A DNA stretch of 39,402 nt from Candidatus Zixiibacteriota bacterium (GCA_020053015.1 JAGVNY010000069.1:1-39402); one strand, 5' to 3'. Counted from the first letter of the stretch, positions 6,085 to 37,404 are shown. Program-made: numbers and translations. The notes: generated by a model not told the origin, from the sequence alone.

Positions 6085-6158
6085 GCCCCCGTAGCTCACG
6101 CGGATAGAGCATCTGCCTTCTAAGCAGAGGGTAGCAGGTTCGAGTCCTGCCGGGGGTA
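6085..6158 (+). tRNA. tRNA-Arg (anticodon TCT)
   Basis: Full cloverleaf by hand: acceptor GCCCCCG/CGGGGGT, D stem GCTC/GAGC, anticodon arm TCTGC-CTTCTAA-GCAGA, T arm GCAGG-TTCGAGT-CCTGC, discriminator A; CCA not encoded. Confidence 0.95.
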
Positions 6159-7591: not shown

Positions 7592-7776
7592 GTTCTCTCC
7601 CCCTTGGCTGCGAGGAGCTTCTTGATGTGGTATGTTTGAATCTTATTCGGCTCCGTGTGCCCATTCAGCCACCGGTTGACCGTTATGAACGCCACCCCGA
7701 GCGTCTCCGCCAGCTTCTCCTGGCTGATGCGGTGCTCCAATCGGTACTCTTCGAGCCGTTCAATCAGCGAGTTCAT
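7588..7776 (-). CDS. XRE-family HTH regulator
   Basis: MNSLIERLEEYRLEHRISQEKLAETLGVAFITVNRWLNGHTEPNKIQTYHIKKLL. Start set at the internal ATG (7776) because the -10 element overlaps the upstream ATG at 7797. Confidence 0.85.
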   Translation of the reverse strand: MNSLIERLEEYRLEHRISQEKLAETLGVAFITVNRWLNGHTEPNKIQTYHIKKLLAAKGERT

Positions 7777-7785
7777 ACGGTCATC

Positions 7786-7814
7786 ATAATATAACATCTT
7801 ACAACTCGCGTCAA
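7786..7814 (-). promoter_or_regulatory. Predicted sigma70-type promoter for the XRE/serine recombinase operon
   Basis: Minus strand TTGACG (7814-7809), 17 bp spacer, TATTAT (7791-7786), just upstream of ATG 7776. Confidence 0.65.
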
Positions 7815-14019: not shown

Positions 14020-15434
14020 GTCTCCACACCCTCTTCCTTTTCCACCAGTTTGATGATTTCCCGCAGTTCATCAACGACAGCTTCGAGTTCGGTTATTGCA
14101 TCTGCAGCCAAGTCCTGTGGCTCAGGGAGATCATCGGAGTCTTCCAGCGATTCATCTTTGAGCCAAGTGATGTCAAGCTTGTAATCTCGTTCTTTCACTT
14201 CACTGATGTGGAATTTGCGGAAGCGTCCTGCTTCACCAAGGTCCTTGCGCTTGCTCCGTCCGTTGGGGTCGGTTCCGTAACACGATTCGAACTCCGCAAA
14301 ATGTTGCTCAGACAACGGGCGTTCCTTCTTGGTGATTCCCGGCACATTGGATCGGGCATCGAAGATCCATACATGCTCAGTGGGCAGCCCTTTCTGAAAG
14401 AAGACGACATTCGCTTTCACCCCCTGGCTGTAGGGAGTGAAGGTGCCGCGCGGAAGGCGCAGGACTGTGTGAAGGTTGCAGTCTTTCATCAGAATCTCAA
14501 ACACTTCCCCCGCCTTGCCTTCGAAAAGGCAATTGTCCGGCAGCACAATCGCCGCACGTCCACCGGGCTTCAGGATGGTAAGAACGTGCTGAACGAAGTT
14601 CAACTGCTTGTTGCTGGTCTCGATCGTGAAATCATCGCGAGTGGGAGCCTGGTTTGCGCCCTTCGTGCCAAATGGGGGGTTAGTCAGGATCACATCAAAG
14701 CGCCTGCTATCGGGGACATCGTAGATCGAATCACCGAGGCTGATTTCCGGCTCCAATCCATGCAGAAAGAGGTTCATCAGGGCGAGTCTTCGAGGACGCT
14801 GGACAAGGTCGGTACCGAAATAGGTGCGATCCTTGACTCGCTCAGCAAGTTTCCGATCCATCGCACCGCCCTTGGTCTGCCCAACCAGCCACTTGTAGGC
14901 TTCAACCAGAAAGCCACCCGTGCCGCAGGCGGGATCACAGATCGTAAACTCCTTATGAGTCCGAGGGTCCGGTTTCATGCACCTTACAATGGTTCGGATC
15001 AACTCGCGCGGTGTGAAATACTGGCCTGCACCCTTCTTGCCCTCATTAGCTGCCTTTTCCAGCAGTCCCTCAAACGCCTCAGCCTTGATATCGATATCAA
15101 GAGCAGTCCATTCTGTTTCATCTATCAGGCCAATGATCTTCTTCAGGTTCACAGGATTGGTGAAGCGAGAAATCGCGCCCGCAAAGATGTCGCCGAGCAT
15201 TCCGGTTTGCTTGCCGAGAGTTCGCAACACATCCACATACTGATCTGCGAGCTCCGTGCCTGAATGGCTTGAGAGTCTCGGCCAATCACATCCCTTTGGC
15301 AGATCGACGCCGCGCTCATCGGCCATCTTGATGAAAAGCAAGTAAGTGATCTGTTCGATATAGTCGCCATAGTCGATTCCGTCGTGCCGCAGTGTGTGAC
15401 AGAATCCCCATAGCTTCTGCGCAACGTCAGTCAT
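14016..15434 (-). CDS. hsdM: Type I restriction-modification DNA methyltransferase subunit HsdM
   Basis: FTICDPACGTGGFLVEAYKW and FDVILTNPPFGTKGANQ (N6-adenine MTase motifs); 4-bp overlaps with hsdS and hsdR. Confidence 0.96.
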   Translation of the reverse strand: MTDVAQKLWGFCHTLRHDGIDYGDYIEQITYLLFIKMADERGVDLPKGCDWPRLSSHSGTELADQYVDVLRTLGKQTGMLGDIFAGAISRFTNPVNLKKIIGLIDETEWTALDIDIKAEAFEGLLEKAANEGKKGAGQYFTPRELIRTIVRCMKPDPRTHKEFTICDPACGTGGFLVEAYKWLVGQTKGGAMDRKLAERVKDRTYFGTDLVQRPRRLALMNLFLHGLEPEISLGDSIYDVPDSRRFDVILTNPPFGTKGANQAPTRDDFTIETSNKQLNFVQHVLTILKPGGRAAIVLPDNCLFEGKAGEVFEILMKDCNLHTVLRLPRGTFTPYSQGVKANVVFFQKGLPTEHVWIFDARSNVPGITKKERPLSEQHFAEFESCYGTDPNGRSKRKDLGEAGRFRKFHISEVKERDYKLDITWLKDESLEDSDDLPEPQDLAADAITELEAVVDELREIIKLVEKEEGVET

Positions 15435-19337: not shown

Positions 19338-19531
19338 TCTGCGCTGAACTACCCCTTATGTCTAACGCGCTCTGAAGACCGTATCTGATCCCGGTATCCT
19401 CAAGATGCCTTTTCTCTTGTATTAGTGATGAAGTCAGCTTACATTTGCGGATGTCACAGAGGTTAACGAACATCGCTCGTGGCGGGTGATTGCCGGCACA
19501 CAGAATACTTGCCGAGTTTCTTGTGTTCACT

Positions 19532-21796
19532 ATGAGAAAGCTCCCTGGTGTATTGCTCGTTCTCCTGACCTTTGCGCCTGCTCTATTTGCGGTGGAGCGT
19601 CTTGAAGTCGAGTGGGATCGCGATCCGGATTATCTCAGATATGTAATCGAGGAGATTCGATTCCATCCGTCTGGGGCCTTCAGAAAACCGATCGGCTCTT
19701 CTAATCTTGTTGTCAAACCGAAACGCAGAGCTTTCGAGCACGGTCTATACGTCAATGCTTGGAATCAGGATTACACGAAAACGGATGATTTCGCACAAGT
19801 CGAATTCGCGGAATATCCGGCCTTTTCTGCAACCAAGGGTAATAGCGTGTCGCTGGCCATCAACTACATGGCTGTTTATGAAGACGTCAAGCTCGGTCGA
19901 AGTGCCGTAGTGGGTACTGGAGACAGGAATGACTCATCTTTTGTCTTTCGAGTGAGCCCAGGTCCTGAGAAGACTGAATACAAATGTGTGGCCACCGGGA
20001 TGGATCGCACCGGAGATGGGCAGTGGACAACTGACTCACATCTCTGTGGGCTGGTGGACTACGACTTTGATGGGGTTGATGAGCTGTTTGTTAACGTGGT
20101 TCCCGGCAGGGACCTTAGTCCTCGGCTGCTCGTCTGTTTAGAGCTGCCTGACCTTGACGTGGAATGGAGCCTCTCCGTAGCATCGGGCACTGTCGGACAC
20201 TTAATCCAATCCAGCCAAGATTCGGAGAGACCATTTGTAATGTTTGTGACGTGTAGTCCTGGACACGGTGCGGCCGATACATGTTTCTCCGACAGATTCC
20301 AGTATGTTGTAGACGTCAATCACATTGGCAACATCACATATAAGAGAGTCGTTGGAAGATACGGGGAAATCCCCTCGTCGTTGGTCACGGCTGATAGTGC
20401 TTCTTTCTACCTGACGCACGGCTTTCCCCTTGAGTATGAAACAGAAGTACCCGAATCTGTCGTATCAGTTCCGCAGGTTTCCCGCATTGATTGGTCAGGC
20501 AATGTGATAGAGTCGGTTGATCTTCCGGAGAAACCGTCACACTTATGGGTTTCTGATTACGGGAATGATGGAAGTGCAGACTTGTTCACTTTGTCACAGA
20601 GTGGCACCGTCAGGATCTTCGATTCTCGTTTGCGATTAGTCGCCGGATCCGAAGAGACCGAGCTACGTGCGTATGTGGGAAGGCTCGATTCATGGTACGA
20701 TTCGAAGCAGGAAGTCTTCGTCATGGTCTCATCGGGCGAAACAGGCTTCTACACCAGAAGACTCGAGAAGCTTGCGTCCTTGCTGGCAGGTGAGTTTGGT
20801 TGTATCGAGGCGATCGAATTGGATTCGGTAGGACGGCTTGCTGCATTCGTCGCATCCGGAACAACCGGCGAGTTCTTCGGTCGTGTCAGACCAAGAAGGA
20901 CTCTTGAGTACTTGAAAGTGTTCTACTTTGAATATCAAGACTACATCGTTGCTATTCTTCCATCGCTGCTGGTCGGCCTGCTCGTAGTCAACTTCTTCAG
21001 GGGTCGAGTTACAAGGCAGAAGCGTGAGATTGAGGCTGTGCACAGAGAGCTGGCTGAAACCCACGAAGCATTGAAGCGAGCACAGCAGACGATCATTGCT
21101 CAGGAGAAATACCGACAGGCCAAGGACATTGCGGGAGGGTTTGCGCATGAGATTCGGAATGCACTCTTCCCTGCTGACAGTTCGATGACAAGGCTCAGGA
21201 GCATGGGTGATTTTTCAGAAGCAGATTCTGAGCGTGTGAATTGCCTATTGTCCGCGGTAGACAGCTCGATAACGCGGGTGATCGATCTAACCAGCCTCAT
21301 CTCGCAATACACCAAGCTCGACGCCGAATTCCGGCCAGAACCTGTTACTATTGCGAAGGTCATTGCTGAAGTAGTTTCGTGTAACCAGATCGAGCTTGAC
21401 GAAGCAGGAATCGCTGTAGAGATTTCAGGCCATCAGGACGCTGTATGTGAGGGGAATGTTAAGCAGATGTTCATCTTGTTCAACAACCTGCTTCGCAACA
21501 GCATTGATGCCTTGACAGGAATCCAGGCGCCGAGTATAATCTGCAATTGGAGAGTCAGTAACGGACTTCTTGAGGTTTCATGGTCCGATAATGGGGTAGG
21601 CATCAAGGCAGAGGACTTACCTCGGATATTCGACACATTCTTCTCGACAAAGCCCAGCAAAGGTACAGGTCTTGGGCTTTGTATTGCCAAGAAGATTGTC
21701 GACCTATACCGCGGAAGCATCACTGCATCGAGCGACCAGATGTCGGGAGCCAGATTTGACATAAGGCTGCGACTCTGGAGAGATGAGCAAGAATAA
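19532..21796 (+). CDS. Sensor histidine kinase with large extracytoplasmic propeller-like N-terminal domain
   Basis: Signal-like N-terminus MRKLPGVLLVLLTFAPALFA; DYDFDGVDELFVNVVPG repeat-like motif; TM IVAILPSLLVGLLVVNFF; KDIAGGFAHEIRNALFP (H box); SDNGVGIKAEDLPRIFDTFFSTKPSKGTGLGLCIAKKIVD. Confidence 0.9.
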   Translation: MRKLPGVLLVLLTFAPALFAVERLEVEWDRDPDYLRYVIEEIRFHPSGAFRKPIGSSNLVVKPKRRAFEHGLYVNAWNQDYTKTDDFAQVEFAEYPAFSATKGNSVSLAINYMAVYEDVKLGRSAVVGTGDRNDSSFVFRVSPGPEKTEYKCVATGMDRTGDGQWTTDSHLCGLVDYDFDGVDELFVNVVPGRDLSPRLLVCLELPDLDVEWSLSVASGTVGHLIQSSQDSERPFVMFVTCSPGHGAADTCFSDRFQYVVDVNHIGNITYKRVVGRYGEIPSSLVTADSASFYLTHGFPLEYETEVPESVVSVPQVSRIDWSGNVIESVDLPEKPSHLWVSDYGNDGSADLFTLSQSGTVRIFDSRLRLVAGSEETELRAYVGRLDSWYDSKQEVFVMVSSGETGFYTRRLEKLASLLAGEFGCIEAIELDSVGRLAAFVASGTTGEFFGRVRPRRTLEYLKVFYFEYQDYIVAILPSLLVGLLVVNFFRGRVTRQKREIEAVHRELAETHEALKRAQQTIIAQEKYRQAKDIAGGFAHEIRNALFPADSSMTRLRSMGDFSEADSERVNCLLSAVDSSITRVIDLTSLISQYTKLDAEFRPEPVTIAKVIAEVVSCNQIELDEAGIAVEISGHQDAVCEGNVKQMFILFNNLLRNSIDALTGIQAPSIICNWRVSNGLLEVSWSDNGVGIKAEDLPRIFDTFFSTKPSKGTGLGLCIAKKIVDLYRGSITASSDQMSGARFDIRLRLWRDEQE

Positions 21797-21826
21797 CTAC
21801 ACCGGACTGAGGTTTGAGGAAACACT

Positions 21827-23212
21827 GTGTCTGACAACGGCAAAGCTACCATTCTGATCGTCGACGATGACCAATATGTCCTCGCAGCTCTGATGCAGTT
21901 GTTTTGTGACGACTACAACGTGATTCTCGCATCCTCTGGCGCTGAAGCGATTGAAGTAGTCAGGATGGGGAAGCAGATATCTGCTGTCGTGATGGATATC
22001 AAGATGACTCCGATGGATGGGCTGACTGCTGCAAGACATATCTTAACGATCGACTCGACTATCCCTGTGATCTTCCATACTGGCTACCCTAGAGAGTATA
22101 ATGAACAACAAATCGATGCTGCCGAGAAACCGTTCGAATACGTTCAGAAAGGTAGATCAAGCCAGCAGCTCATAAGGGCTGTCAGAAATGCGGTTGAGAC
22201 GAGTCTGCTGAGGAGAAGCACAGTTGAGTTGTCACGGTATGCCGCTAACAACTTCGACATCATAGGCCGCTCGCCAGTCATGCTTGAAGTTTATAGGCTC
22301 ATTCGAAGAGTGGCTCCCACTGAGGTGAAAGTAATGATTCTCGGCGAGACTGGTACTGGTAAGGAGCTCGTTGCGAGGGCAATCCATAAGCTGAGCGCGA
22401 GGAAGGACAACCGTCTTGTGATCTTCAACTGTAATCACAAGTCAGCAGACCTTGTTGAGTCAGAGCTTTTCGGACATGTGAAAGGTGCTTTCACGGGAGC
22501 GATCTCGGGTCGTATAGGGCAGTTTGAGTACGCCGATGGGGGTACAGTCTTCCTGGACGAGATCGGTGATCTCGATATCACAACGCAAGCGAAGTTACTT
22601 CGTGTGGTTGAGACGGGCGAATTCAGTCGGGTTGGAGCCCATGATGTGAGTGTTACTAATGTGAGAGTGATCTGCGCAACTCATAAGAGTCTTGAGGGAT
22701 TGGTTTCTGAGGGCAGGTTCCGAGAAGACTTGTACTATCGGCTCAAAGGTGTGCAGATTCTCATGCCGCCATTGCGCGAAAGACGCGAAGACATACCTCT
22801 GCTCATAGGGAAATTCCTCGATCGCTTCACAATCGAGTGCGATATGCCGCCCAAGTACTTCGATCCCGATGCAGAAGCCGTATTGAGGAAATTCGACTGG
22901 CCCGGCAATGTCCGCGATCTCGAGCGGGCGGTGGAATCGCTGATCGTACTCACCGATTCAGACGTGATCATTGTGGGCGATGTCCAACGCTATCTACATC
23001 TGATACAGGATGCAGTCTCGGACAGTTCAGAAGGTGTGATTCCTCTTCCGGTTCGGGTTCGTGAGTTCAAGCGAAAGTGCATCGAAGACGCCTTGAGCCA
23101 GACAGGTGGCAACATCAGCGAGGCAGCTCGTCTGCTTGGGGTAGATCGAGCCAATCTTGGGCGGGATATCCGTGCTCTCAACATTGCACTCGCAAGTGGT
23201 TCTGCCTCTTAA
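21827..23212 (+). CDS. NtrC-family sigma54-dependent response regulator
   Basis: TILIVDDDQYVLAAL...VVMDIKMTPMDG (receiver), GETGTGKELVARAIH, ESELFGHVKGAFTGA (GAFTGA loop), Fis-type HTH GNISEAARLLGVDRANLGRDI. GTG start 31 bp after the kinase. Confidence 0.95.
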   Translation: MSDNGKATILIVDDDQYVLAALMQLFCDDYNVILASSGAEAIEVVRMGKQISAVVMDIKMTPMDGLTAARHILTIDSTIPVIFHTGYPREYNEQQIDAAEKPFEYVQKGRSSQQLIRAVRNAVETSLLRRSTVELSRYAANNFDIIGRSPVMLEVYRLIRRVAPTEVKVMILGETGTGKELVARAIHKLSARKDNRLVIFNCNHKSADLVESELFGHVKGAFTGAISGRIGQFEYADGGTVFLDEIGDLDITTQAKLLRVVETGEFSRVGAHDVSVTNVRVICATHKSLEGLVSEGRFREDLYYRLKGVQILMPPLRERREDIPLLIGKFLDRFTIECDMPPKYFDPDAEAVLRKFDWPGNVRDLERAVESLIVLTDSDVIIVGDVQRYLHLIQDAVSDSSEGVIPLPVRVREFKRKCIEDALSQTGGNISEAARLLGVDRANLGRDIRALNIALASGSAS

Positions 23213-23350
23213 GTAGGTCATTCTGACATCTGATACCCGTCGCATGTGAGTCACGGTGACCTCACAGCACTCATCTCGCTCCGATCTGAACTTCTCATAA
23301 TCTCTTTCACGACTTAGGCTTCACGAGCTGCTACTGCCCGCTCAACGAAT

Positions 23351-23366
23351 TGGCACAGGCTTTGAT
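23351..23366 (+). promoter_or_regulatory. Candidate sigma54 -24/-12 site
   Basis: TGGCACAGGCTTTGAT against consensus TGGCACRNNNNTTGCW; the -12 C is A here, so the match is imperfect. Confidence 0.35.
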
Positions 23367-23501
23367 ATCACTAATAAGGCAGAAGGAAACAAGCAATGGC
23401 ACATGACATCTCAAACAGGAGGAAGAACGAGGAAGAAAGACTGGAGGGGATTATCCCAAACACGTACCGTGAAACAACCCAGATTGGAAGGAGAAGAAGC
23501 C

Positions 23502-25556
23502 GTGTTCGAAAGATTCACTTTGACTTGGAAGGCCACGCTCTTTGTGGCAGCGATAGCAATTCTATTCGCAGGTAGTTCATTTGGACAATTGACTCCATTG
23601 CATGAGAACTGGGAAGATGATGCTGTGCTACCCAATGTCGACTGGGGAGTTGTGGTGCAGAGCAGCGGAACAACCTATCCGTTCATTGAAGATTTCGGCA
23701 ACCCTGGCAAGAGCCTAAATATGGGCGGTACCGGTGACGGGCATAAGGCCCGAACCTACCATAAGACATTCCGACCGGACTATAGTTTCGGACTCGTTAC
23801 GGAGTTCGATGTGTATCTCTCGGGAAGCGGGTCACATTACACTGACGCGCAGGTGCTTCTTTCGACATCACCTGATGACTTCGACGCAGGCACGACTCTT
23901 CTCATGTGGTTCAACAAGTATAGTAGTAATCAGCGCAGAGTATGGATGTGCTTGTACTCTTCAGATCCCGAACACGATGAGCAGTTGATCTTGTCCGATG
24001 CTTACATCAGTGACACATGGAACCATGGAAAGGTGGTAGTTCGACCAGACCAGCGTGTCGAATTCTATGTGAATGATCTGCTACTCTGGACTTCAACCAA
24101 GACAATCGATCCGGCGAATGCCACAAACACTTACCTGTGTATAGAGGGCCAATCGTACAACGGCCCAGCGCGGCTTGATAATCTACTGGTCACCGGAGTG
24201 CCTGACACCCTTCGCATCGGGCGTCCTGCGTACCAGTCTCAGATACTGCCTGCATGCGTTAGAGTGCCTGTCTACCTCTACAACTATCGTCCCACAGCCG
24301 CTGGCAGATTTCCTCTTACATACGACTGGGATTCCGATCCGGATTCCGTCAGCTTTGTGAACACACGACTCGAAGGAATGGACGTTTTGCTGGCCAATAT
24401 CGATCCGACTGAGAACGTGATTGATGTGATGTTTGTTGCCGATTTCGGACCAGGCTATCTCCCGCCCGTCGACGCGAGCTCTGCAGACATACCGATGTTT
24501 TGGGTCTACCTAAGTCTGGACTGCGACTTGCACGGAATGTCGTTATCGCCTCCGGAAACCACCACCGTATGTGCTGTGGAGGATTGTTTCGGCGTGAGAA
24601 CCGTCGATACATATGCGCTAATTTCAGTACCTGAGGTTGTCTCTAATAGCCTTCTCGTGAAGAGATACATGCCGGGCGACGTTAATGCGTCTGGCAACAG
24701 AGACATAGACGACATAGTGTATCTGATTCACTATGTATTCACCGGAGGCCCTGAACCGGCGATGTGCCTTATGGTCGGTGACTGCAATGGAGACTGCAGT
24801 ATTGACATTGACGACATTATGTGGCTGATCGATTTCATCTTCCGGGCCGGTCCGCTACCCGTCGATGGATGCTCCGTCAAGTCGAGTCTGGCGAAAGCTA
24901 GTATCGGAACGGCAGACATTATAGTTGCATCATGGAGAAAGGCTGGCCGAAGTGGGACCTCTCTCTATCTTGATGCCGACAGAGATGTTCGTGGCCTGCA
25001 GCTGGAATTCGAAACACACGGGGATGTCGCGAACCTGAGCGTCTCATCGACACTTGAAGGCGTGCAGTTGTTCTCAGGCTGGGTTGACGGGCGGTTCAAG
25101 GTTGGGTTGCTCGATGTGCAGGGTCAGGCGTTGATCCCTGCTGGCAAGAACGACATCGTCACATTCAGCTACACTGGCGAGGGCGATGTAGAGCTTGTCA
25201 AGACTATTGCTGTGGCAAAGGGTGGCGGTCATCTTGACGTGACCGTCTCAAAGGATGCTTCAACAGCGACTCTACCGATTGACTTTTCTCTCGACCAGAA
25301 TCACCCCAACCCGTTTAACCCGTCAACGGAGATTAGCTTCAGCCTGCCGGTGGCATCCAACGTCCGGCTGGATGTCTTCAACATCATGGGTCAAACGGTC
25401 GCGACTCTGGTCAATGGCAATCTGCAAGCAGGCAAACACAGCGTGGTTTGGAACGGCAAGTCATCTGCCGGAGAGACAGCTGCTTCAGGAGTCTACTTCT
25501 ACAAGATCGAGGCGGCAGGCTTCACGGATGTTAAGAAGATGCTGCTGATGAAATAG
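23502..25556 (+). CDS. Secreted protein with dockerin-type repeats and T9SS-type C-terminal sorting domain
   Basis: Signal peptide from GTG 23502 (FTLTWKATLFVAAIAILFAGSSFGQ); GDVNASGNRDIDDIVYLIHYVFTGG and GDCNGDCSIDIDDIMWLIDFIFRAG (dockerin pair); NHPNPFNPSTEISFSLP...KKMLLMK tail. Confidence 0.88.
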   Translation: MFERFTLTWKATLFVAAIAILFAGSSFGQLTPLHENWEDDAVLPNVDWGVVVQSSGTTYPFIEDFGNPGKSLNMGGTGDGHKARTYHKTFRPDYSFGLVTEFDVYLSGSGSHYTDAQVLLSTSPDDFDAGTTLLMWFNKYSSNQRRVWMCLYSSDPEHDEQLILSDAYISDTWNHGKVVVRPDQRVEFYVNDLLLWTSTKTIDPANATNTYLCIEGQSYNGPARLDNLLVTGVPDTLRIGRPAYQSQILPACVRVPVYLYNYRPTAAGRFPLTYDWDSDPDSVSFVNTRLEGMDVLLANIDPTENVIDVMFVADFGPGYLPPVDASSADIPMFWVYLSLDCDLHGMSLSPPETTTVCAVEDCFGVRTVDTYALISVPEVVSNSLLVKRYMPGDVNASGNRDIDDIVYLIHYVFTGGPEPAMCLMVGDCNGDCSIDIDDIMWLIDFIFRAGPLPVDGCSVKSSLAKASIGTADIIVASWRKAGRSGTSLYLDADRDVRGLQLEFETHGDVANLSVSSTLEGVQLFSGWVDGRFKVGLLDVQGQALIPAGKNDIVTFSYTGEGDVELVKTIAVAKGGGHLDVTVSKDASTATLPIDFSLDQNHPNPFNPSTEISFSLPVASNVRLDVFNIMGQTVATLVNGNLQAGKHSVVWNGKSSAGETAASGVYFYKIEAAGFTDVKKMLLMK

Positions 25557-25882: not shown

Positions 25883-26995
25883 TTGAGAAACTCGTTCGAG
25901 AAGGGTTGCTCATTGATCCCGATCCACGAAAGAGGGGAGATCGTCCGCCGGTTTCTCCTTGATCCTGCCAGCGAAAAAGCGTTCCTGTCCTTCTTCAGCA
26001 TCTGCCACTCTATTGCCAAGGGGGAACTGCAGTATCTTCGCCAGAGAGGAAACGTGCATCTTCTGAGGTGTGCTGATCGAGGAGAATCGATTGAAGCTGT
26101 GGCGTGCAGTTGTCTTGGTGATCTCTTCGCGCGCGACAGATGCGGGAGGTATTACAGACTGCCTGAAGGTCTTCATGATCTCGGGGTTGATGACTTTGAG
26201 AGAATCGACACAAGCTTGTTGTACCTTCGGATCGAGAGTCTAATCAAAACACATGCATATCAGTCTCTTGCGAAAAAGGCCGGGCGTGAAGACCCATTGG
26301 CAGTAGCTCTTCGGAACAGATTCAAGAGCATACTGCGCTCTGACCAATTCTGTTCGCCAAACGAGTCCAAGGGCGCGGGAAGATGGATTTGTCTCCGCAA
26401 GAACAGGGACCGACTTCGCCGCGAGAAGCCCGACATATACTTTGATTGCCTTCTCCGGATTGCCGACGATGCGTATGAGGTAACGAGGACGAAGAAGGAA
26501 TGGTGTACACGCATCTTTGAGTTTCTTGACGAGGCTGAGGATGTCCGGAATTGCCTGCGGAAGTCCGACCTTCTGAGGGCAGTGGTTGCCGTGAATCGGG
26601 GCAAGATAGGTCCGGGGGATGTGATGGGTCGCGGTGAACGGTCACCGGCCTATTTGGCGCTGTGCCGAGAGGCTGAGAAGGTCCAAGCAGACATTCTGGA
26701 TTGGGTCATGGAGAGCCTTGTGGCCAAGTACTTACAGAAAGGTAAGTTTACAATTGATGAAGCAGAAGTGGTTAGGAATGCCGTGGAAAGCTACCTGGGC
26801 GACTTGATCGAGCACGGATGTACGGATTCGAAGCGGACCTATTTCGAGGAGGCGATGTCCGCAGATGTCCATGACATATACATAAAACGATACAAGGATG
26901 CATTCGAGTTGATCGTTGACAAGGCTGCGGAGGAATTTCAACGTCGAATGAGAAAAATCGCCACAGAACTCGGATTTATCGACTACTTTGGATAG
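25883..26995 (+). CDS. Unknown protein, first gene of the zf-HC2/Lon-like operon (possible sigma-like or regulatory role by context)
   Basis: 370 aa ORF; stop overlaps the next start (TAGTG). Start uncertain (TTG 25883 or TTG 25913, the latter after GAGAAGGG). No motif firmly recognised. Confidence 0.75.
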   Translation: MRNSFEKGCSLIPIHERGEIVRRFLLDPASEKAFLSFFSICHSIAKGELQYLRQRGNVHLLRCADRGESIEAVACSCLGDLFARDRCGRYYRLPEGLHDLGVDDFERIDTSLLYLRIESLIKTHAYQSLAKKAGREDPLAVALRNRFKSILRSDQFCSPNESKGAGRWICLRKNRDRLRREKPDIYFDCLLRIADDAYEVTRTKKEWCTRIFEFLDEAEDVRNCLRKSDLLRAVVAVNRGKIGPGDVMGRGERSPAYLALCREAEKVQADILDWVMESLVAKYLQKGKFTIDEAEVVRNAVESYLGDLIEHGCTDSKRTYFEEAMSADVHDIYIKRYKDAFELIVDKAAEEFQRRMRKIATELGFIDYFG

Positions 26996-27870
26996 TGGAA
27001 CACGGTAGGGAGGTCAGATTGCACCCCACCAGGGACATGCTTAAGCTCTATGTATATAGAGCGTTAGAGGACAACAGCATCTCGGACGACGTCACAGAGC
27101 ATTTGCGAGAGTGCGAGCTCTGTGCGGAGTTTGTACAAGAGTATCGTGAGCAGTGCGAGCTCATAGACGAAGCTTATGCAGAGCCGCTCAGCGATGAGAC
27201 TCTCGAGTTCGCTCGAACGCTCTTTGGCAGACCGGCCGCTGGTGCGATCATACAACTCTCGTTCGCCGAGGCAGACAAGCCGGCATCCTTGCGTCTTGCT
27301 GCGGATGGTCGAAGTAGCCGCCCGAACGTAGTCAATCTCGTTACGCTTTTCTCCGAAAAGCCGGAGGTTGTGCTCAATGTGATGCGTGATGTCAGCAAGG
27401 ACATCGACTATCTGCAATTGATCGCCAATGACCCGGCCTTGTCCTCCCACGTCATGATTCAGATCCCGGAACTTGGGCGCGAGTTCATCACGGATGACGA
27501 TGGCCGAGCAGTAATCGAGCAGCCGCGCATCGAGAATTTCAACAAGCTCAAATGGCAGATCAAGATGCCAGATGCGGTCTTTGCCCTAATGCCTCTCACC
27601 TATGACCCCGAACGCGTGGAATACTCGGAGGAAGTCATTCTTACCACGCAGAAGCAGGACAAGATCAAGGTGATGTTCGAAGGCAGGGAATTAGGGAAGA
27701 GAATAGTGATTCAGATACTCGAGCTTGAAGGCAAAGCTGATTTCGGCAAGATCAGAGTGGCGATTGCCCAGAATGGCGTCGCCAAAACATCGTTTGTCTC
27801 ACGCGGCGAGACTGTTCTCTTTGATCTCGTCAATTCAGAAAGCCGGGTTAATATAAGGCTGTTTCAATAG
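26995..27870 (+). CDS. Protein with N-terminal zf-HC2-like zinc finger (anti-sigma-like)
   Basis: VTEHLRECELCAEFVQEYREQ fits HxxxCxxC of anti-sigma zinc fingers; no obvious TM segment in the 291 aa. Confidence 0.7.
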   Translation: MEHGREVRLHPTRDMLKLYVYRALEDNSISDDVTEHLRECELCAEFVQEYREQCELIDEAYAEPLSDETLEFARTLFGRPAAGAIIQLSFAEADKPASLRLAADGRSSRPNVVNLVTLFSEKPEVVLNVMRDVSKDIDYLQLIANDPALSSHVMIQIPELGREFITDDDGRAVIEQPRIENFNKLKWQIKMPDAVFALMPLTYDPERVEYSEEVILTTQKQDKIKVMFEGRELGKRIVIQILELEGKADFGKIRVAIAQNGVAKTSFVSRGETVLFDLVNSESRVNIRLFQ

Positions 27871-27876
27871 ATTCCT

Positions 27877-30192
27877 ATGTCGACCAATCCACTCCAATTT
27901 GCCAAGGAATTTGCGCGACTGCGTGCTGATCTTGCCTCTGATATTGCGCCAGATCACAAAATGCTGCACATGATGCGTTTCTGGCCCGAGCTTGCCGGTG
28001 TCAAAGATCAGAATCAGTACGGCGACTACTTTCGAGAATTCATTCCGACATATCTTGATCTCATCGAATCCCGCAACCTCGTTGATCTTGATATCCAGGA
28101 GCTGGAAGCTGTAAGTACTCTCCTCTCCGAGATCAGCTCGCTAACGTCTCAGTTCGCTGATTTCGGCAAAGTTGCGGGGAAAGCGAAAATTGCCAAGCTG
28201 GAACTCGCGAAGAAGCTCTTCTATGTGGGTGATGTTGAGCGGGGACTCGCCGTGTGCGCTGACATTGCTGGCACTGCAGTCCCGGCCGGCAATTTCGATG
28301 GACACGGCGAACGGGACACATTGCGGGAATTGGCTGAAAAGGTCGGCGATTCGAACCTTGGTTCGGTTCTCAAATCGATTCTAACCGATTGGGACTGCGA
28401 TCGGGAATCCATCCATCAGGACAGAATCCAGGCTCTATTTGTGGAGCGGGACGACCTCACAGGCGAATATCGTGGCCGGATGCGCACTCTCGAAGGTGCA
28501 GTTGATCTGTTCAAGAAGGATGCCCCGGGTGATGAACTGACCTTTGATAATCAACTCAGAGCGCCTGACGATCCATTTGTCGGATCGGCATTTAACGCAC
28601 TCGGCGCGGTCAGGCGCGTGTGCAAGCGGATGAATCTGAAAGCGCAGGGGAATGCGAAGTACCACGCACATTTCTCCGTCCTCGGCAGTAAGCATACATT
28701 CACAGGCGATTCGATTGGTCTTGCTGTCGGGCTTGTGACGTATGTCCAGCTTCTGAAGCGGGAAATATCATGGCAGGACAGCTTTCTCGGGTCTGGCGTC
28801 GCCGTTACCGGCGGAGTGGATGAGAACGGCATGATAACGCCGTGCAATTCGGATACGCTCAGGTACAAGATCAAGCGGGCGTTCTTCTCTCCTGTGCGAT
28901 ATCTGATCCTTCCCGATTCCAATCTCGACGATGCCCGAAGGCATGTCGATGTTCTTCAAGCAGACCACCCAAACCGCCATCTCGGCCTGATTCCAGTTGC
29001 TTCAGTCGAAGATGCCATCAATGACCGGAATGTCATCCGTGAGCAGAAGGTTTGCATAGTTCCGTACGTCGGCAGAGTAGCCAAACGCTACACCCGCTCA
29101 GCAGCCGTCCAGGTGCCGATACTGCTGGCGTTGCTGTGCTTGCTTGTCTTTCTCATTTACTCAGTGGTATTGCCGTGGCTCGATCGAGGAATCGACCACA
29201 TTGAGTTCGCCGATGACAGATTCCGCGCCGTGAACAAGCATGGTCGCACCGTCTGGTCATCTTCGGGATTCGGCTCCCCTCTTGACGCAAATCACTACAA
29301 CGAAGCAAAAAGGAGAAGCCGCAATCCGTACTTGATCACGGACTTTGACAACGACGGTAGAGACGAACTGTTCTTCTCGCCGATCTACACAAACAAGCAA
29401 CAACGAACTGTGGTCTACTATTACAAAGACGAATGCCTCCTCGACTCTGTGATCCCATACAGGCCAACTTCATATCCGGGGGACAGTTTGGGTAAATATC
29501 GAGTCGCCAACCTCATGGTCATAGACGACACCAATGGCAGCCGTTATCTCGTGACCAACGCGGATGTGTCAATGCCTGCCCGGGCACAGATATTTCTGTG
29601 GGACTCCGATCTCAATCTTGTCTCTGGTCCGTATCTACATACGGGCTCCATACCCGACATGATGCTGATTAGTTCAGATGATGGCGCCGGGAAACGCCCA
29701 AAGCTTGTCGCCTATGGCGTTAACAACAGATATTCGATGGCTCCGTTTGTGGTACTGGATCCTTGGCGCATGTACGGTGTAAGTCCGCCTTGGGATAATG
29801 AATTCTTCATAGCATCCGGGATGTCCAAAGGAAGCCAACTTGCCTATGTGGCTCTTCCCGAGACCGACCTTTCAATCGATTCCACAATTCATAACAACGT
29901 CCTCAACACAATCTATGACCCAAACTCAAAAACTTGGGAGATTCACGTGCTGGAGGCTTATGACATTGGAGTCGAGTTTCCCCCCGTCATGTATCATCTT
30001 GACAACCAGCTCCTGCCGAGCTCGGCTGATTTTGGAGATGGTGCCGATGCGGTACTCAAACGACGTTACTCCGAACTGTCTTGGCCGGAGGAAAAGCGAA
30101 AGACGGCGAGCGAGCTCCGCGTCAATCTGCTGCAGAAAGTTGTTGTCTATCACGGCGACTCAATAGTCTATCCCCCCCTGCAGTCCAAGTAG
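27877..30192 (+). CDS. Membrane protein with Lon-type (S16) protease-like domain, one TM helix and C-terminal FG-GAP-like domain
   Basis: FTGDSIGLAVGLVTYVQLL...VAVTGGVDENGMITPCNSDTLRYKIKRAFFSPVRYLILPDSN aligns with the Lon protease-domain pattern (Ser279, Lys331); TM VQVPILLALLCLLVFLIYSVVLPWL; then LITDFDNDGRDELFFSPIY. Confidence 0.78.
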   Translation: MSTNPLQFAKEFARLRADLASDIAPDHKMLHMMRFWPELAGVKDQNQYGDYFREFIPTYLDLIESRNLVDLDIQELEAVSTLLSEISSLTSQFADFGKVAGKAKIAKLELAKKLFYVGDVERGLAVCADIAGTAVPAGNFDGHGERDTLRELAEKVGDSNLGSVLKSILTDWDCDRESIHQDRIQALFVERDDLTGEYRGRMRTLEGAVDLFKKDAPGDELTFDNQLRAPDDPFVGSAFNALGAVRRVCKRMNLKAQGNAKYHAHFSVLGSKHTFTGDSIGLAVGLVTYVQLLKREISWQDSFLGSGVAVTGGVDENGMITPCNSDTLRYKIKRAFFSPVRYLILPDSNLDDARRHVDVLQADHPNRHLGLIPVASVEDAINDRNVIREQKVCIVPYVGRVAKRYTRSAAVQVPILLALLCLLVFLIYSVVLPWLDRGIDHIEFADDRFRAVNKHGRTVWSSSGFGSPLDANHYNEAKRRSRNPYLITDFDNDGRDELFFSPIYTNKQQRTVVYYYKDECLLDSVIPYRPTSYPGDSLGKYRVANLMVIDDTNGSRYLVTNADVSMPARAQIFLWDSDLNLVSGPYLHTGSIPDMMLISSDDGAGKRPKLVAYGVNNRYSMAPFVVLDPWRMYGVSPPWDNEFFIASGMSKGSQLAYVALPETDLSIDSTIHNNVLNTIYDPNSKTWEIHVLEAYDIGVEFPPVMYHLDNQLLPSSADFGDGADAVLKRRYSELSWPEEKRKTASELRVNLLQKVVVYHGDSIVYPPLQSK

Positions 30193-30519: not shown

Positions 30520-33500
30520 ATGGGACGCTTTGTAGGAATTCTTGTGGCGGTGCTTGTAGCACTCCAGCCCATTCGCGCAGAGGCGGATGTGATCTTCGAG
30601 GATGATTTTGTGGGCGCGACAATTAACTGGACGAAATGGGAGGTATATGACACTCGAGAATGTTCAGACGAGGTGTCATCAGTAACGCAGAATGATCATC
30701 TTATCGTAGACATCAACCCGACTAATGACAACTGCGGCCATTTAGGCGTGATTTCGGCGCTGGACTTCCTGGACTACACGGACAACGTCTCATACGAAGT
30801 CGATTTCTGGACTACTTCTTTTCGAAATTGGCAGGACCAGCCCATAAACATCAGGACACCGATTGGCGAAGTCGCCTATAACAACCCTTCAGGATGGTGG
30901 CTTGTGTGGATTAGTCCATCGGGAAGCCAGCAGTGGATAAAACCTGATCTCGGACAAGTCTACGACCGCTTGTTTCGGGTTAAGCTCGCCCTTGTCGACG
31001 GAGATCTCCAGTTCTGGATCAGTACCGACGGCGGCGGTTATGAACTCCTTCATACTGTTCCGAATGGGTCTTATGGACTTCCCTACGTTCCGTCAGGAAA
31101 GGTTATCCTGTCTCAATCTGATCGCGGCCCATCGTACTTTGATAATCTTGTGGTCACTGCGAGCGGATCGGGAGTAGAATATCCAGAGACTTGGTACAAG
31201 TCTCCATGTAATCCTGTATTTACTGCGTCAGGTAACCCATCCTATCCAACTGTGGTTCACACTGGTGGAACGTATGAGTATATCATGTATTTCGACAAGT
31301 ACTCGCCGCCGCAGCATATCGAGTGGGCGACGTCCGATGATGCGGTGAATTGGACTGAACAGGGAGCGCTGATTACCCCAGGAATGAATGGCGAGTTCAA
31401 CTGGCATGATATCTCTATTAGTCAGGTGCTCTACAACGAGAACACCGGTGAGTATTGGATGTACTACGGCGCCGACGATGGCACCCCAAGCTGGCGTGCA
31501 ATCGGTCTGGCAACCTCACCTGACGCAGTTACCTGGGATGATCAGGGTGAAGTCTTCAGCGTTGGATCAGGTACCTGGGATTCATACTCAGTTGGTAGTC
31601 CGCAGGTCATCTGGGATGAAAGCGCAGGCCTGTACTACATGCTCTATGCCGGCAACGGAACAGGTTACGGTCTTGGATTGGCTTCTTCCACAGATGGTTA
31701 CTCATTTACCCGCGTTGGGACAGCACCCGTCATTTCGCCGGGATCAGGCTCAGATTTCGACGCGAACGGGGTGCATCGTGTGGATGCCTTCTTTGAGGAG
31801 AACGGCAAATACGTATGTTACTACTCCGGTCGCAACAGCAGCAATTCCTGGGCGGTCGGAAAGGCTGAAGCCACATCAGTAGCCGGCCCGTGGACCAAGC
31901 TGGGCCGGACATTGTACGCAACCGAGCCATGGGAAGGAAACTCTATCGGTTGGTGTTCTGTATTAGATGTCAACGGCGTTCGCACAGCATATTACCAGAG
32001 CACAAACTACAGAGTTGGCATAGCACAGTTTGAGGATATGGGTTCTGAATGCATCGTGGCTAGCCCGGAACCTCAAGACTGCCAGCCGCAAGCGGATTAT
32101 CAGTCACCTTATGCTCCCGACGACTGCACAGTCGGTCTCTGGCCTGCTGATGAGGGTTCTGGCACTGATGTAATCGACGCCTCTGGAGGTGGAAGCAATG
32201 GTACTCTCTACGGGGTGGGCTGGGGTACTCACGTAGAATCAACTACCGATTTCGGCGGTTGCCTCGTGTTTGACGATCACGATTCGGCGAAGGTCTCTCT
32301 CACGAATACTGGCTTCATAACCGGTTCACACACGATTGAAGCCTGGGTCAAGCCGGCAGTCACGAATGTCACGCAAACGGTATTGTGCTTGTATTCGTCA
32401 TCACAGCAAGTGCAAATTCCTATCATAGTACATGACGATGGAAAGGTGTCATTCCGTGTATGCGGAACCGGAAGTCAGTGGGACGAAATCAAAGGCACGA
32501 CTTCTCTGCAGCCCGGAGCCTGGTACCATGTTGCCGGGGTCTGGGATCAGAGTACGCATGAGATGTCCGTCTACGTGAATGGACAGGAAGAAAACTCGAA
32601 AGTCCTCAGCTACTCACCAACCACACTCAGAAACGGCACATTCGACTTCGGAAAGATGTGGACGGAGCAAACTGTTCCCAACGGAGCCGCACTGTACTTC
32701 AGTGGCAGCATTGACGAGGTGAGGATTTCGAATGTGGCGAGAACATCGAATCCGCAACCGGACGATGACTGCGGCCCCACCACTGCGTTCCATGAATCTA
32801 AGTTCTCTTATCTTGGAGGCTATCCGGCGGTCACTTTTCAATGTCACTCTGATGATCGGCAGTCTGGTGGATCGCCAATTTCGGGAGCAGAGTATTTCTG
32901 GGATGTTGATCCCGGACAGGGGCGAGGTATTCCCCTTGATCCTGAAGATGGTTCATTCGATAGCCCCCATGAGCTATTGTCAGCGATTGATATTGACTTG
33001 AGATCACTTGGTTCGGAGGAGCATATTTTAAGCATACGTTCAAGAGACGAAGTAGGCAACTGGGGCGCCATTGTTAGCGAGGCTGTACAGACGACTTCGT
33101 CGCGGTTTGACCCTCTGACCGACGGTTTCAATTTCAAGAACTGGGGTATCATCCCGCACTGCTCGGGTATGGCGTGGGCAAACGAATTTCTGTGGAGGCT
33201 CGAGTCACCGATTCCTGACAATGACATTGCGCTTTTGCCGCCTGATGCTGAATGTCCCGACAGAACGAGTAGGCCTCCTGAGCTCAGTCCAACTTGGGTA
33301 CTTATCAACATCTTTCAGTGGGGATTCTTGCCAGAGGGTGCAAAGGAAAATCTGAGAATCCGGCTCAAATGGTTTCTGGATCGTAGTGAATGGATCAGAA
33401 CGCAGTACAACGAGGTTCAGGACTTGCTCGAGAGTGGATACAATGGGATCATGTACCTTGTACGAAGCGGGCCCGGTGGACACGCGGTGCAAGCTTACAG

Positions 33501-35133
33501 AACGGCGAGAATCGGGACGGACCTGAAATGCATATTCCTTTACGATCCGAATTACCCGAATAACTGTCCCAGAACCCCCAGCAATACGGGGATTCTCATA
33601 AACTCGTCAGGTAGTATCTGGGAACCGCTTGACGGTGACGACATCTATGATGGGTATGAGAGTTTCGGGTTGAGTGCCTTCTGGATGGAGGTTTACCGTG
33701 TTAGTATGCTCATCGCTCGGTGCCCGATAGAGGTCGAGGTTGCGACCTCAATTGGCGACTATATCTCGAAGGACTCAGTCTCGAGACCGGGTCTTACTTA
33801 CTCCACAACGACCGCATTTGACGACGATGGCGATTCCATTCAGAAGGTTCTCTATTTCGGACTGGACTATCCGCAAGCTGCGTACTCAATACGAGTTGTC
33901 CCTCATGATACAGCAAGCGAGGACTCAAGAGTCACACTGCTGTTTGTTTCATCTGGTGATGTCACGGTGCTTGCGGACAGCGTTGCCGTACGGGAAATAC
34001 CGCAAGAAGGTTACTTCTTCTCCACCCTCGACACCGGCTCCGTCTCCGGAATCGTCTCCTCGAATGCCACTGGCCTTCTCGGAATCCCGGTTGACCTGTA
34101 CGATGAAGGCGGCTCAATCGTAGCGTCCACAGTGACCGATGAGGCGGGACAGTACTGTTTCGCGGGACTGAACAACGGAGACTATGCGTTATCAATCTCG
34201 ACTCCTCTGGGATACCAAGCCGACCAGGAAACAAGGCAGATTGAGGTCAAAGGACTACCCCACACGATCAACTTCGAACTGACCAAGCTCCAGATTACTC
34301 CGGCACCGCGCACACGTGGGTACTGGGCTAATCAACTTCTGAAAGCCATGCAGAACAAGCCGCAAGATTACAATGTCGGTCATTTCGCGCAGTTTGCCGG
34401 TCTCATCAATCAGCACTTCAACCAGAATGAGATCAACCCTGTCGACTTCTTCTCAGTGCCTCAACCTGCCTCGCGGCAGGATAGTCTGATGGCGCTGAAG
34501 ACGCTGTTGCACATGATGGGTGACTGTCAGGAACCATTCCTGAAGCGGTTAGCTAAGGCACAGTTGATGGCCCTTATGCTCAACGTAGTCTCCGGAAAGC
34601 TCAGCCAGACTGAAGCAATCACGGCAGATGGTAACACTGTGAGCCAAGTGGTCACCTACTGCGACATGTTGGTGAACGATGAGATTGACGTTCCCGATGA
34701 CGGTGGCCCCGGACATGGCAGCCCGTGGTGCCGGTATATCCGTGCCGATTTTGTCCTCACTTTCGTCAACTTGCATCTGCAGGTGCCGGCGTGGTTGATT
34801 CCGAATGACGTGATTCAGATCACGTACCGTCAGGCTGCCGAGCTGAACATGCCAACGGATTTCTCACTCGAGCAGAATCACCCGAATCCGTTCAACCCGT
34901 CAACCGAGATCAGCTTCAGCCTGCCGGTGACCTCGCAGGTGCGGCTCGATGTCTTCAACATCATGGGCCAGAAGGTGACTGCGCTTGTCAATGGTAGTTT
35001 GCCCGCCGGCAAGCACAACGTGACTTGGAACGGGAAGTCATCGGCTGGCGAGACGGTGGCATCCGGAGTCTACTTCTACAAGATTGAAGCAGCAGGATTC
35101 ACTGATGTGAAGAAGATGCTGCTGATGAAATAG
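30520..35133 (+). CDS. Large secreted multidomain protein (GH43-like propeller, LamG-like, papain-like peptidase-like, SdrB/Cna-B-like, T9SS sorting tail)
   Basis: Signal peptide MGRFVGILVAVLVALQPIRAEA; YEYIMYFDKYSPPQHIEWATSDDAVNWT propeller repeats; SHTIEAWVKP...PGAWYHVAGVWDQSTHEMSVYVNG (LamG); HCSGMAWANEFLW/GGHAVQAYRT/LYDPNYPNN; SVSGIVSSNATGLLGIPVDLYDEGG; NHPNPFNPSTEISFSLP tail. ATG preceded by GGAGGAGAGC. Confidence 0.85.
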   Translation: MGRFVGILVAVLVALQPIRAEADVIFEDDFVGATINWTKWEVYDTRECSDEVSSVTQNDHLIVDINPTNDNCGHLGVISALDFLDYTDNVSYEVDFWTTSFRNWQDQPINIRTPIGEVAYNNPSGWWLVWISPSGSQQWIKPDLGQVYDRLFRVKLALVDGDLQFWISTDGGGYELLHTVPNGSYGLPYVPSGKVILSQSDRGPSYFDNLVVTASGSGVEYPETWYKSPCNPVFTASGNPSYPTVVHTGGTYEYIMYFDKYSPPQHIEWATSDDAVNWTEQGALITPGMNGEFNWHDISISQVLYNENTGEYWMYYGADDGTPSWRAIGLATSPDAVTWDDQGEVFSVGSGTWDSYSVGSPQVIWDESAGLYYMLYAGNGTGYGLGLASSTDGYSFTRVGTAPVISPGSGSDFDANGVHRVDAFFEENGKYVCYYSGRNSSNSWAVGKAEATSVAGPWTKLGRTLYATEPWEGNSIGWCSVLDVNGVRTAYYQSTNYRVGIAQFEDMGSECIVASPEPQDCQPQADYQSPYAPDDCTVGLWPADEGSGTDVIDASGGGSNGTLYGVGWGTHVESTTDFGGCLVFDDHDSAKVSLTNTGFITGSHTIEAWVKPAVTNVTQTVLCLYSSSQQVQIPIIVHDDGKVSFRVCGTGSQWDEIKGTTSLQPGAWYHVAGVWDQSTHEMSVYVNGQEENSKVLSYSPTTLRNGTFDFGKMWTEQTVPNGAALYFSGSIDEVRISNVARTSNPQPDDDCGPTTAFHESKFSYLGGYPAVTFQCHSDDRQSGGSPISGAEYFWDVDPGQGRGIPLDPEDGSFDSPHELLSAIDIDLRSLGSEEHILSIRSRDEVGNWGAIVSEAVQTTSSRFDPLTDGFNFKNWGIIPHCSGMAWANEFLWRLESPIPDNDIALLPPDAECPDRTSRPPELSPTWVLINIFQWGFLPEGAKENLRIRLKWFLDRSEWIRTQYNEVQDLLESGYNGIMYLVRSGPGGHAVQAYRTARIGTDLKCIFLYDPNYPNNCPRTPSNTGILINSSGSIWEPLDGDDIYDGYESFGLSAFWMEVYRVSMLIARCPIEVEVATSIGDYISKDSVSRPGLTYSTTTAFDDDGDSIQKVLYFGLDYPQAAYSIRVVPHDTASEDSRVTLLFVSSGDVTVLADSVAVREIPQEGYFFSTLDTGSVSGIVSSNATGLLGIPVDLYDEGGSIVASTVTDEAGQYCFAGLNNGDYALSISTPLGYQADQETRQIEVKGLPHTINFELTKLQITPAPRTRGYWANQLLKAMQNKPQDYNVGHFAQFAGLINQHFNQNEINPVDFFSVPQPASRQDSLMALKTLLHMMGDCQEPFLKRLAKAQLMALMLNVVSGKLSQTEAITADGNTVSQVVTYCDMLVNDEIDVPDDGGPGHGSPWCRYIRADFVLTFVNLHLQVPAWLIPNDVIQITYRQAAELNMPTDFSLEQNHPNPFNPSTEISFSLPVTSQVRLDVFNIMGQKVTALVNGSLPAGKHNVTWNGKSSAGETVASGVYFYKIEAAGFTDVKKMLLMK

Positions 35134-35562: not shown

Positions 35563-37404
35563 CTACCCGCCTTCGCCATTTGTCACCCGAAGAATTGTGC
35601 CATTCATTCCTACGACACTGCCCTCATCTGGACCAATGAACGAGGTTCCATACAGATGGTTGCTTGTCTCGTTCGTCTGTTTCACCCATTTCTGACCGCC
35701 GTTCGTTGTACGGAGGATGGTTCCATTCTCCCCAACGGCTGTTCCTGTATTCGCGTCCGTGAACGATACTCCATAGAGATAGTATCCAGTGGCAATTGTC
35801 TGACGAACCCATGTCCGTCCGCCATCTGTCGTCCGAAGGATAATTCCACCACCGCCCACTACAATCCCTGAATTAGCGTCGGCAAATGATATACCAGAAA
35901 GCCGGTTGCTTGTCCCGCTCGTCTGACGAACCCATGTCACTCCACCGGAACTTGTTTTGAGGATAGTGCCATATATGCCTACGGCCGCTCCTACATTCGC
36001 ATCCGTGAACGATACGCCGAAAAGCTGGTTGCTCGTTCCACTTGTCTGCCTGACCCATGTGTCGCCGCCGTCCGTTGTCCGAAGGATAGTGCCGGCATCC
36101 CCTACGGCTGCTCCCGTAGACGCATCCGTGAACGACACGCCATGGAGATCATCACTCGTTCCGCTTGTCTGACTAACCCAAGTCGCTCCGCCGTTCGTCG
36201 TCCGAAGGATAGTGCCACTATTCCCTACGGCTGTTCCCGTAGACGCATCCGTGAATGACACGCAACGGAGATCATTGCTCGTTCCGCTTGTCTGACTAAC
36301 CCAAATCGCTCCGCCGTTTGTCGTCCGAAGGATAGTGCCACCATTCCCCACGGCTGTTCCCGTGGATTCATCCGTAAACGACACGCCATAGAGATCATTG
36401 CTCGATCCGCTTGTCTGAGTCACCCATGTGTCGCCACCGTCTGTCGTCCGAAGGATAGTGCCACCATCCCCTACAGCTGTTCCCGTAGACGCATCCGTGA
36501 ACGATACACCATGGAGATCATTACTCGTTCCGCTTGTCTGACCAACCCAAGTCGCTCCGCCGTTCGTCGTCCTAAGGATTGTGCCACCATCCCCCACGGC
36601 TGTTCCCACAGACGCATCCGTGAACGATACGCCATTGAGGTCATTACTCGTTCCGCTTGTCTGACTAACCCAAGTCGCTCCGCCGTTCGTCGTCCGAAGG
36701 ATTGTGCCACCATCCCCCACGGCTGTTCCCGTAGATGCATCCGTAAACGATACGCCACGAAGGTCACTGACAGTCCCACTCGTCTGACTTGGCCATGTCG
36801 TTCCACGGTCGGATGTCCGAAGAATGGTTCCTCTGTCCCCAACAGCTGTTCCCGTGTCCGCGTCTGTGAAACACACGCCCAGGAGCCAGTTGACGGTTCC
36901 GCTTGCTTGACTAACCCACATCGAGCCCGAAGTTGTCGTGCTGAGTATCGTGCCACTGGACCCAACGGCAGTTCCAGTAAGCGCATCTGTAAACGATATG
37001 CTACGGAGGTCGTTGCCTGTTCCGCTTGTCTTCTTGGACCATGTCGCGCCGCCATCCGTTGTTCGAAGAATAGTGCCGCTATTGCCCACTGCCGTTCCCA
37101 TGTTTGCAGAGGTGAATGATACACTGTAGAGACTGTTGCTCGTTCCGCTCTTCTTCTTAACCCAAGTCTCGCCGCCGTCTGTCGTCCGTAGGACAGTGCC
37201 GCAATCGCCAACGGCTGTACCAGTATTTGCCTCCGCGAACGAAACGCTGCGAAGACGGTTGCCCTGTGGTAAGGGGTTCTGCCAATACCATTCTGGCGGA
37301 TTCGACAACGGTTGTGGACTTACGGAGTTCTTGGAACAAGCGCAAAAAAGAACCATCACGACAAGGCCAGTGAAAGCTCCGACGAATCCTACTCTCTCAC
37401 GCAG
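35563..37404 (-). CDS. YCF48-like/BNR tandem-repeat lipoprotein-like protein
   Basis: About 13 copies of a 41-aa unit (GTAVGDGGTILRTTNGGATWVSQTSGTSNDLNGVSFTDAST). N-terminus extended to CTG 37404, which follows AAGGAGG and gives signal MRERVGFVGAFTGLVVMVLFCACS. Confidence 0.85.
   Translation of the reverse strand: MRERVGFVGAFTGLVVMVLFCACSKNSVSPQPLSNPPEWYWQNPLPQGNRLRSVSFAEANTGTAVGDCGTVLRTTDGGETWVKKKSGTSNSLYSVSFTSANMGTAVGNSGTILRTTDGGATWSKKTSGTGNDLRSISFTDALTGTAVGSSGTILSTTTSGSMWVSQASGTVNWLLGVCFTDADTGTAVGDRGTILRTSDRGTTWPSQTSGTVSDLRGVSFTDASTGTAVGDGGTILRTTNGGATWVSQTSGTSNDLNGVSFTDASVGTAVGDGGTILRTTNGGATWVGQTSGTSNDLHGVSFTDASTGTAVGDGGTILRTTDGGDTWVTQTSGSSNDLYGVSFTDESTGTAVGNGGTILRTTNGGAIWVSQTSGTSNDLRCVSFTDASTGTAVGNSGTILRTTNGGATWVSQTSGTSDDLHGVSFTDASTGAAVGDAGTILRTTDGGDTWVRQTSGTSNQLFGVSFTDANVGAAVGIYGTILKTSSGGVTWVRQTSGTSNRLSGISFADANSGIVVGGGGIILRTTDGGRTWVRQTIATGYYLYGVSFTDANTGTAVGENGTILRTTNGGQKWVKQTNETSNHLYGTSFIGPDEGSVVGMNGTILRVTNGEGG
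35590..37240 (-). repeat. Coding tandem repeat, 123-bp period
   Basis: Recurring core such as cccgtagacgcatccgtgaacga at about 36113, 36236 and 36484, always a multiple of 123 bp apart or nearly so. Confidence 0.85.

Follow-up and report, generated by a model that had tools for sequence, protein, structure and literature searches.

The Calp system, a type III CRISPR SAVED-Lon system in which cA4 is the switch, acting on a SAVED domain, contains a Lon protease, CalpL, which cuts the anti-sigma factor CalpT and is thought thereby to release the sigma factor CalpS (PMC11417357). In the Craspase system, composed of Csx29, Csx30, and CASP-sigma, a sigma-factor inhibitor is likewise cleaved, here by Csx29, an RNA-activated, caspase-like CHAT enzyme (PMC10028731). 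In systems of the RseA/RsiW type, the anti-sigma factor is itself located in the membrane and is processed by several proteases in turn (PMC10028731), and RsrA and ChrR are soluble zinc anti-sigma factors (PMC4960319, PMC6432622).

The locus described here lies in a stretch of 39,402 nucleotides (the window) from Candidatus Zixiibacteriota bacterium (GCA_020053015.1 JAGVNY010000069.1:1-39402) and encodes three proteins, p1, p2, and p3 (Table 1). The nearest precedent is CalpL/T/S, which likewise combines a Lon-type protease, an anti-sigma-like protein, and a partner regulator, but the candidate sensor of p3 is an extracytoplasmic propeller located across a membrane helix rather than a SAVED domain, a zinc anti-sigma site is present in p2, and p1, in contrast with CalpS, could not be related to ECF sigma factors. 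Given the different sensor and the lack of sigma-factor similarity in the sequence of p1, the p1-p2-p3 set is not a member of the Calp group, although it may work in a similar way. Craspase is a second precedent with respect to the proposed proteolysis of a sigma-type inhibitor, but no protein family was found in common between Csx29, Csx30, or CASP-sigma and p1 to p3. The three-part logic common to both systems would also fit a defense or conflict system with p3 as its activated protease, and one p3 member gives a weak match to the PADLOC CARF_LON model (E 0.016). This alternative is nevertheless very improbable; the PADLOC models gave no significant match, a nucleotide-sensor domain (SAVED or CARF) was not recognized on p3 by Pfam, the sensor is predicted to be extracytoplasmic, and the linked p4 gene encodes a secreted surface protein. 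The proposed scheme resembles RseA/RsiW in linking an external signal to anti-sigma proteolysis, but here the membrane-spanning component is the protease, and the anti-sigma-like protein is soluble.

Table 1. Features of the p1-p2-p3 locus and its downstream neighbor, with positions counted from the first nucleotide of the window
Feature	Coordinates	Strand	Basis
p1, soluble all-helical protein (proposed partner released from p2)	25883-26995	+	29-member alignment, AlphaFold model
p2, soluble zinc anti-sigma-like protein (predicted)	26995-27870	+	Zinc-site alignment, zf-HC2, anti-sigma matches
p3, transmembrane Lon-like protease with extracytoplasmic propeller (predicted)	27877-30192	+	Alignment, model, Foldseek, topology
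p3 N-terminal helical domain, residues 1-177	27877-28407	+	Model secondary structure
p3 S16/Lon-like proteolytic domain, residues 183-391	28423-29049	+	Alignment, 1z0e profile match, Foldseek
p3 single membrane helix, residues 409-435, N-in/C-out	29101-29181	+	Model, hydrophobicity, Lys/Arg bias
p3 extracytoplasmic FG-GAP-like propeller, residues about 441-720	29197-30036	+	FG-GAP_3 matches, model, kinase homologues
p4, secreted 1537-aa protein, downstream neighbor	30520-35133	+	Signal peptide, GH43-like, LamG, FlgD_ig/Por_Secre_tail sorting tail

The initial annotation had described three tightly packed plus-strand genes, and the open reading frames for p1, p2, and p3 (370, 291, and 771 aa) agree with it in position and in the 6-bp gap between p2 and p3. 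It had also noted a TAGTG overlap of p1 and p2. This sequence is present at 26993-26997, where the p1 TAG (26993-26995) overlaps the annotated p2 GTG (26995-26997), but the overlap is probably not used, because p2 homologues mostly begin at the residue directly before "HP", for which the window has the codon TTG at 27019, and because GGGAGG is found just 5' of this TTG. The true start of p2, as judged from these sequences, is therefore probably TTG 27019, which would give a 23-bp gap between p1 and p2. The start of p1 is uncertain; its first ∼15 residues are unconserved and an in-frame TTG is also present at 25913.

Zixibacteria is a little-known phylum, and a phylum-wide survey covered 136 of its genomes. 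The survey retained 52 stretches for p1, 47 for p2, and 53 for p3, the counts leaving out weak matches to the zinc domain only, to the Lon part only, or to the propellers of kinases. The gene order predicted to recur in other genomes does so: there are 41 complete syntenic p1-p2-p3 triples, in which one frameshift-split gene (G042) is counted twice, in 32 of the 136 genomes, and p2 lies directly 3' of p1 in 46 of 47 instances, the sole exception being truncated by a contig end. Copies of p2 or p3 that lack a neighbor are mostly cut at contig ends. Multicopy genomes exist, and the order is retained in each full triple; in the genome of the window, p2 is present as a single copy. The recurrence of the same proteins in the same order across the phylum argues that the three are not chance open reading frames. 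Overall, p1 is present in 41 genomes, p3 in 38, and both in 35 of the 136 (hypergeometric value 8e-23, which is not an independent-sample probability because the genomes are related). Comparison of distance matrices gives a correlation of 0.91 between p1 and p2 and of about 0.8 between each of these and p3, suggesting that the three genes have been inherited together. In profile searches of genome contigs, a query with a single protein returned nothing and a closer alignment returned 10 loci. One further copy was found in a bin of Candidatus Abyssobacteria in the one collection searched outside the phylum, and reflects either transfer or mis-binning. A locus designated L117 (G119:C85), in which p1 and a slightly shortened p2 have no adjoining p3 and a phage integrase lies just upstream, is a decayed copy. 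A split p3 in a single-contig genome (G024) was considered as a rearrangement and rejected; since runs of N are located at the shared stretch, the split is probably an assembly artifact. Several other p3 genes stop at contig edges near residues 284-350 (contigs C18 and C26 of G094 and contigs of G004), which suggests that near-identical stretches of paralogues disrupt assembly.

Although Pfam gave nothing reliable for p1, p2, or p3 of the window itself, the alignments of their homologues are informative for p2 and p3. The p2 sequences contain the motif of zinc anti-sigma (ZAS/zf-HC2) proteins, H-x3-C-x2-C with an upstream His or Cys: H36, C40, and C43 are invariant in 32 of 32 members, in agreement with the conserved cysteines expected from the initial annotation, and the upstream ligand, ∼25 residues before H36, is His (in MHP) in the main clade and Cys (in CP) in a distant clade, a substitution that a zinc ligand would be expected to show. 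The Pfam zf-HC2 model matches 18 of the 32 members (best 1.8e-5), individual members match the anti-sigma, RsrA, and ChrR models of NCBIfam, and a p2 profile matches anti-sigma factors in the PDB (3hug, E 6e-4; 5wuq, 0.003; 8rlz, 0.007). A membrane helix is absent from every aligned member, so that the earlier description of a zf-HC2 domain with no such helix is upheld. From its sequence, p2 is thus predicted to be a soluble zinc anti-sigma-like protein. It resembles RsrA and ChrR in its zinc-site motif and solubility but differs from them in having an added C-terminal region of ∼200 residues, a conserved domain with no assigned family, and in being tied to a dedicated protease gene.

For p3, the Lon_C model of Pfam is matched by 9 of 29 members (best 3e-5), and a p3 profile matches the proteolytic domain of archaeal LonB (1z0e, E 6.3e-6), in register at the Ser and Lys columns. 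Ser279 and Lys331 are invariant in all 29 members, and Lys331 aligns to the KIEAA lysine of LonB; the possibility that Arg replaces the catalytic Lys was accordingly discarded. The model of p3 (pLDDT 84.9, pTM 0.54) gives Foldseek matches to Lon domains with TM-scores up to 0.82 and E values down to 7e-11. The Lon-like domain proposed for this protein is therefore supported, as a predicted S16 proteolytic fold with a conserved Ser-Lys pair. This fold and dyad are also those of the proteolytic domains of archaeal LonB and MtaLonC, from which p3 differs in lacking an AAA+ module, for which there was no family match in any of the 29 members, and in having an additional C-terminal ectodomain; because of the missing AAA+ match, p3 is regarded as a Lon-like protease rather than a classical Lon. 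The second half of its N-terminal helical domain is missing in a distant clade, and it is possible that this domain binds the substrate or a partner.

In all 29 members the most strongly hydrophobic segment is the one at residues 409-435 of the window protein, and in 28 of them it has an excess of Lys and Arg on its N-side, which indicates a cytoplasmic Lon domain and an external propeller. This topology, together with matches to FG-GAP_3 in 14 of 29 members (best 1.7e-4), agrees with the earlier proposal that the protease has the membrane helix and carries an FG-GAP-like propeller beyond it. A search of the available literature for a Lon-like, transmembrane, and FG-GAP combination retrieved no paper, and no published example was found of the proposed layout as a whole, with an outside sensor on a membrane protease that would control a soluble anti-sigma-like protein and its partner in the cytoplasm. 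The p3-profile search also retrieved proteins of 522-702 aa from five genomes in which Lon is replaced by a HATPase_c kinase domain; these have the propeller in common with p3, with or without the helix. Thus, by predicted topology, a propeller ectodomain and a transmembrane helix are combined with more than one kind of cytoplasmic output. The strongest argument that this ectodomain is a sensor is its occurrence on both the kinases and p3. In the five kinases (L111, 1616-3667; L112, 3727-5805; L113, 214-2292; L114, 6142-7710; L115, 87-2195), the HATPase domain is N-terminal and the propeller is C-terminal and outside, an inverted layout.

These features bear on the possibility that p3 is a membrane-anchored protease for envelope quality control, with p1 and p2 as cytoplasmic adaptors and no transcriptional output. 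Archaeal LonB, which is the best sequence match of p3, comes from a membrane-bound quality-control family, and p1 has no regulatory match, but such a role is unlikely in view of the absence of an AAA+ motor from p3, the anti-sigma type of zinc site in p2, which has no adaptor signature, and the presence of the same propeller on histidine kinases. In addition, the genomes already contain separate proteins of about 830 aa that match only the Lon part of p3 and are probably ordinary Lon.

The weak point of a regulatory scheme is p1. Its alignment of 29 members has very few conserved columns, its net charge is about 0, and its AlphaFold model (pLDDT 88.3, pTM 0.65) consists almost entirely of helices, with no transmembrane helix in the window protein. 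Pfam and NCBIfam gave no family and no sigma model, a p1 profile had no significant match among PDB sequences, and a Foldseek search of the PDB and BFVD returned nothing at E below 0.1. Among the matches listed, none of which is below that value, a sigma factor has the highest query TM-score in both libraries, but at 0.23 and 0.24 these model-based scores are only a hint. Homology with sigma factors at the level of sequence profiles was rejected, hhalign comparisons with 19-20 sigma factors of Zixibacteria being no better for p1 than for block-shuffled p1. The initial annotation had proposed a check of the 370-aa protein for a sigma- or DNA-binding fold, and none was recognized by sequence or fold search. 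The assignment of p1 as the released regulator therefore arises from gene order and from its zinc anti-sigma partner, and not from p1 itself.

The best explanation of the locus, to which we give about an even chance of being correct, is that signal-gated, transmembrane Lon-type proteolysis of the anti-sigma-like inhibitor p2 frees p1, in a manner like that of CalpL/T/S. The linkage, the zinc signature of p2, the Lon fold and dyad, the topology, and the reuse of the sensor on kinases are computational results; beyond these, we infer cleavage of p2 by p3, binding of p1 to p2, an action of p1 on transcription, and a role of p4 as target or ligand. The propeller of p3 would sense something beyond the cytoplasmic membrane, possibly the state of p4 or of a p4 substrate, and the signal would cross through the single membrane helix to the cytoplasmic domain containing Ser279 and Lys331. 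A limited cut in p2, rather than full degradation, would be expected because p3 has no AAA+ motor. As substrate of p3, p2 would be the soluble inhibitor that holds p1, and p1 set free by the cut would alter expression of the locus, including p4. The absence of sigma or DNA-binding similarity in p1 and its lack of net charge count against this explanation, as do the absence of p3 from L117 and of a promoter-like (bipartite) motif common to the upstream regions of p1 and p4. A more specific reading, that p3 is a receptor-protease in which the propeller gates the Lon site and that p1, held by p2, is a new class of regulator that is sigma-like in use but not in sequence, is tentative and somewhat doubtful. 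If signal-gated proteolysis of p2 is confirmed, one membrane protein would both sense the outside and bear the protease site inside, and such a receptor-protease would replace the multiprotease relay used for membrane anti-sigma factors. The logic of the CRISPR-associated Calp system would be linked to ordinary envelope or surface signaling, a single sensor module would be common to kinases and proteases, and the p1 family would have a function, in a phylum represented here solely by metagenome-assembled genomes.

A fourth gene, p4, is also included in the conserved locus. The gene 3' of p3 is usually on the same strand, and among 28 such genes scanned, 16 encode FlgD_ig or Por_Secre_tail and 26 encode a sorting tail, dockerin, propeller, or FG-GAP domain; most of the p4-type products have an N-terminal, hydrophobic, signal-like stretch. 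The recurrence of these domains, the rarity of FlgD_ig (30 stretches in the 3.1-Mb genome of the window), and a decayed locus in G060 (L119), in which a p1 remnant is directly beside a tail remnant, argue that p4 belongs to the locus, where it would be the output target or the thing sensed. This linkage, the sorting tails, and the L119 remnants could also be accounted for if the four genes were a surface-protein export or processing module in which p3 and its partners make, process, or sort p4. We consider this quite improbable, however, as the Lon domain is cytoplasmic by topology and p4 is exported, the domain content of p4 varies widely whereas p1 to p3 are constant, and p2 resembles an anti-sigma factor.

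Other genes of the window may be noted. The region immediately upstream of the locus (19490-25556) encodes a histidine kinase of 768 aa, which has a HATPase_c domain and a large N-terminal region, and an NtrC-type sigma-54 response regulator, followed by a secreted protein with a dockerin/FlgD_ig tail. Two distinct signaling systems thus adjoin in the window, and a sorting-tail protein follows each of them; the p3 propeller was also compared with the ectodomain of this histidine kinase, and no homology was detected. Judged by eye, open reading frames like those of type I restriction-modification systems (specificity, methyltransferase, and helicase-like) are present on the minus strand at 12568-18136, and integrase-like and recombinase-like open reading frames are located near them at 6120-8911. 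Downstream of p4, the minus strand at 35563-37359 encodes a 598-aa protein with many near-identical repeats of GTAVGxxGTILRTTDGGxTW.
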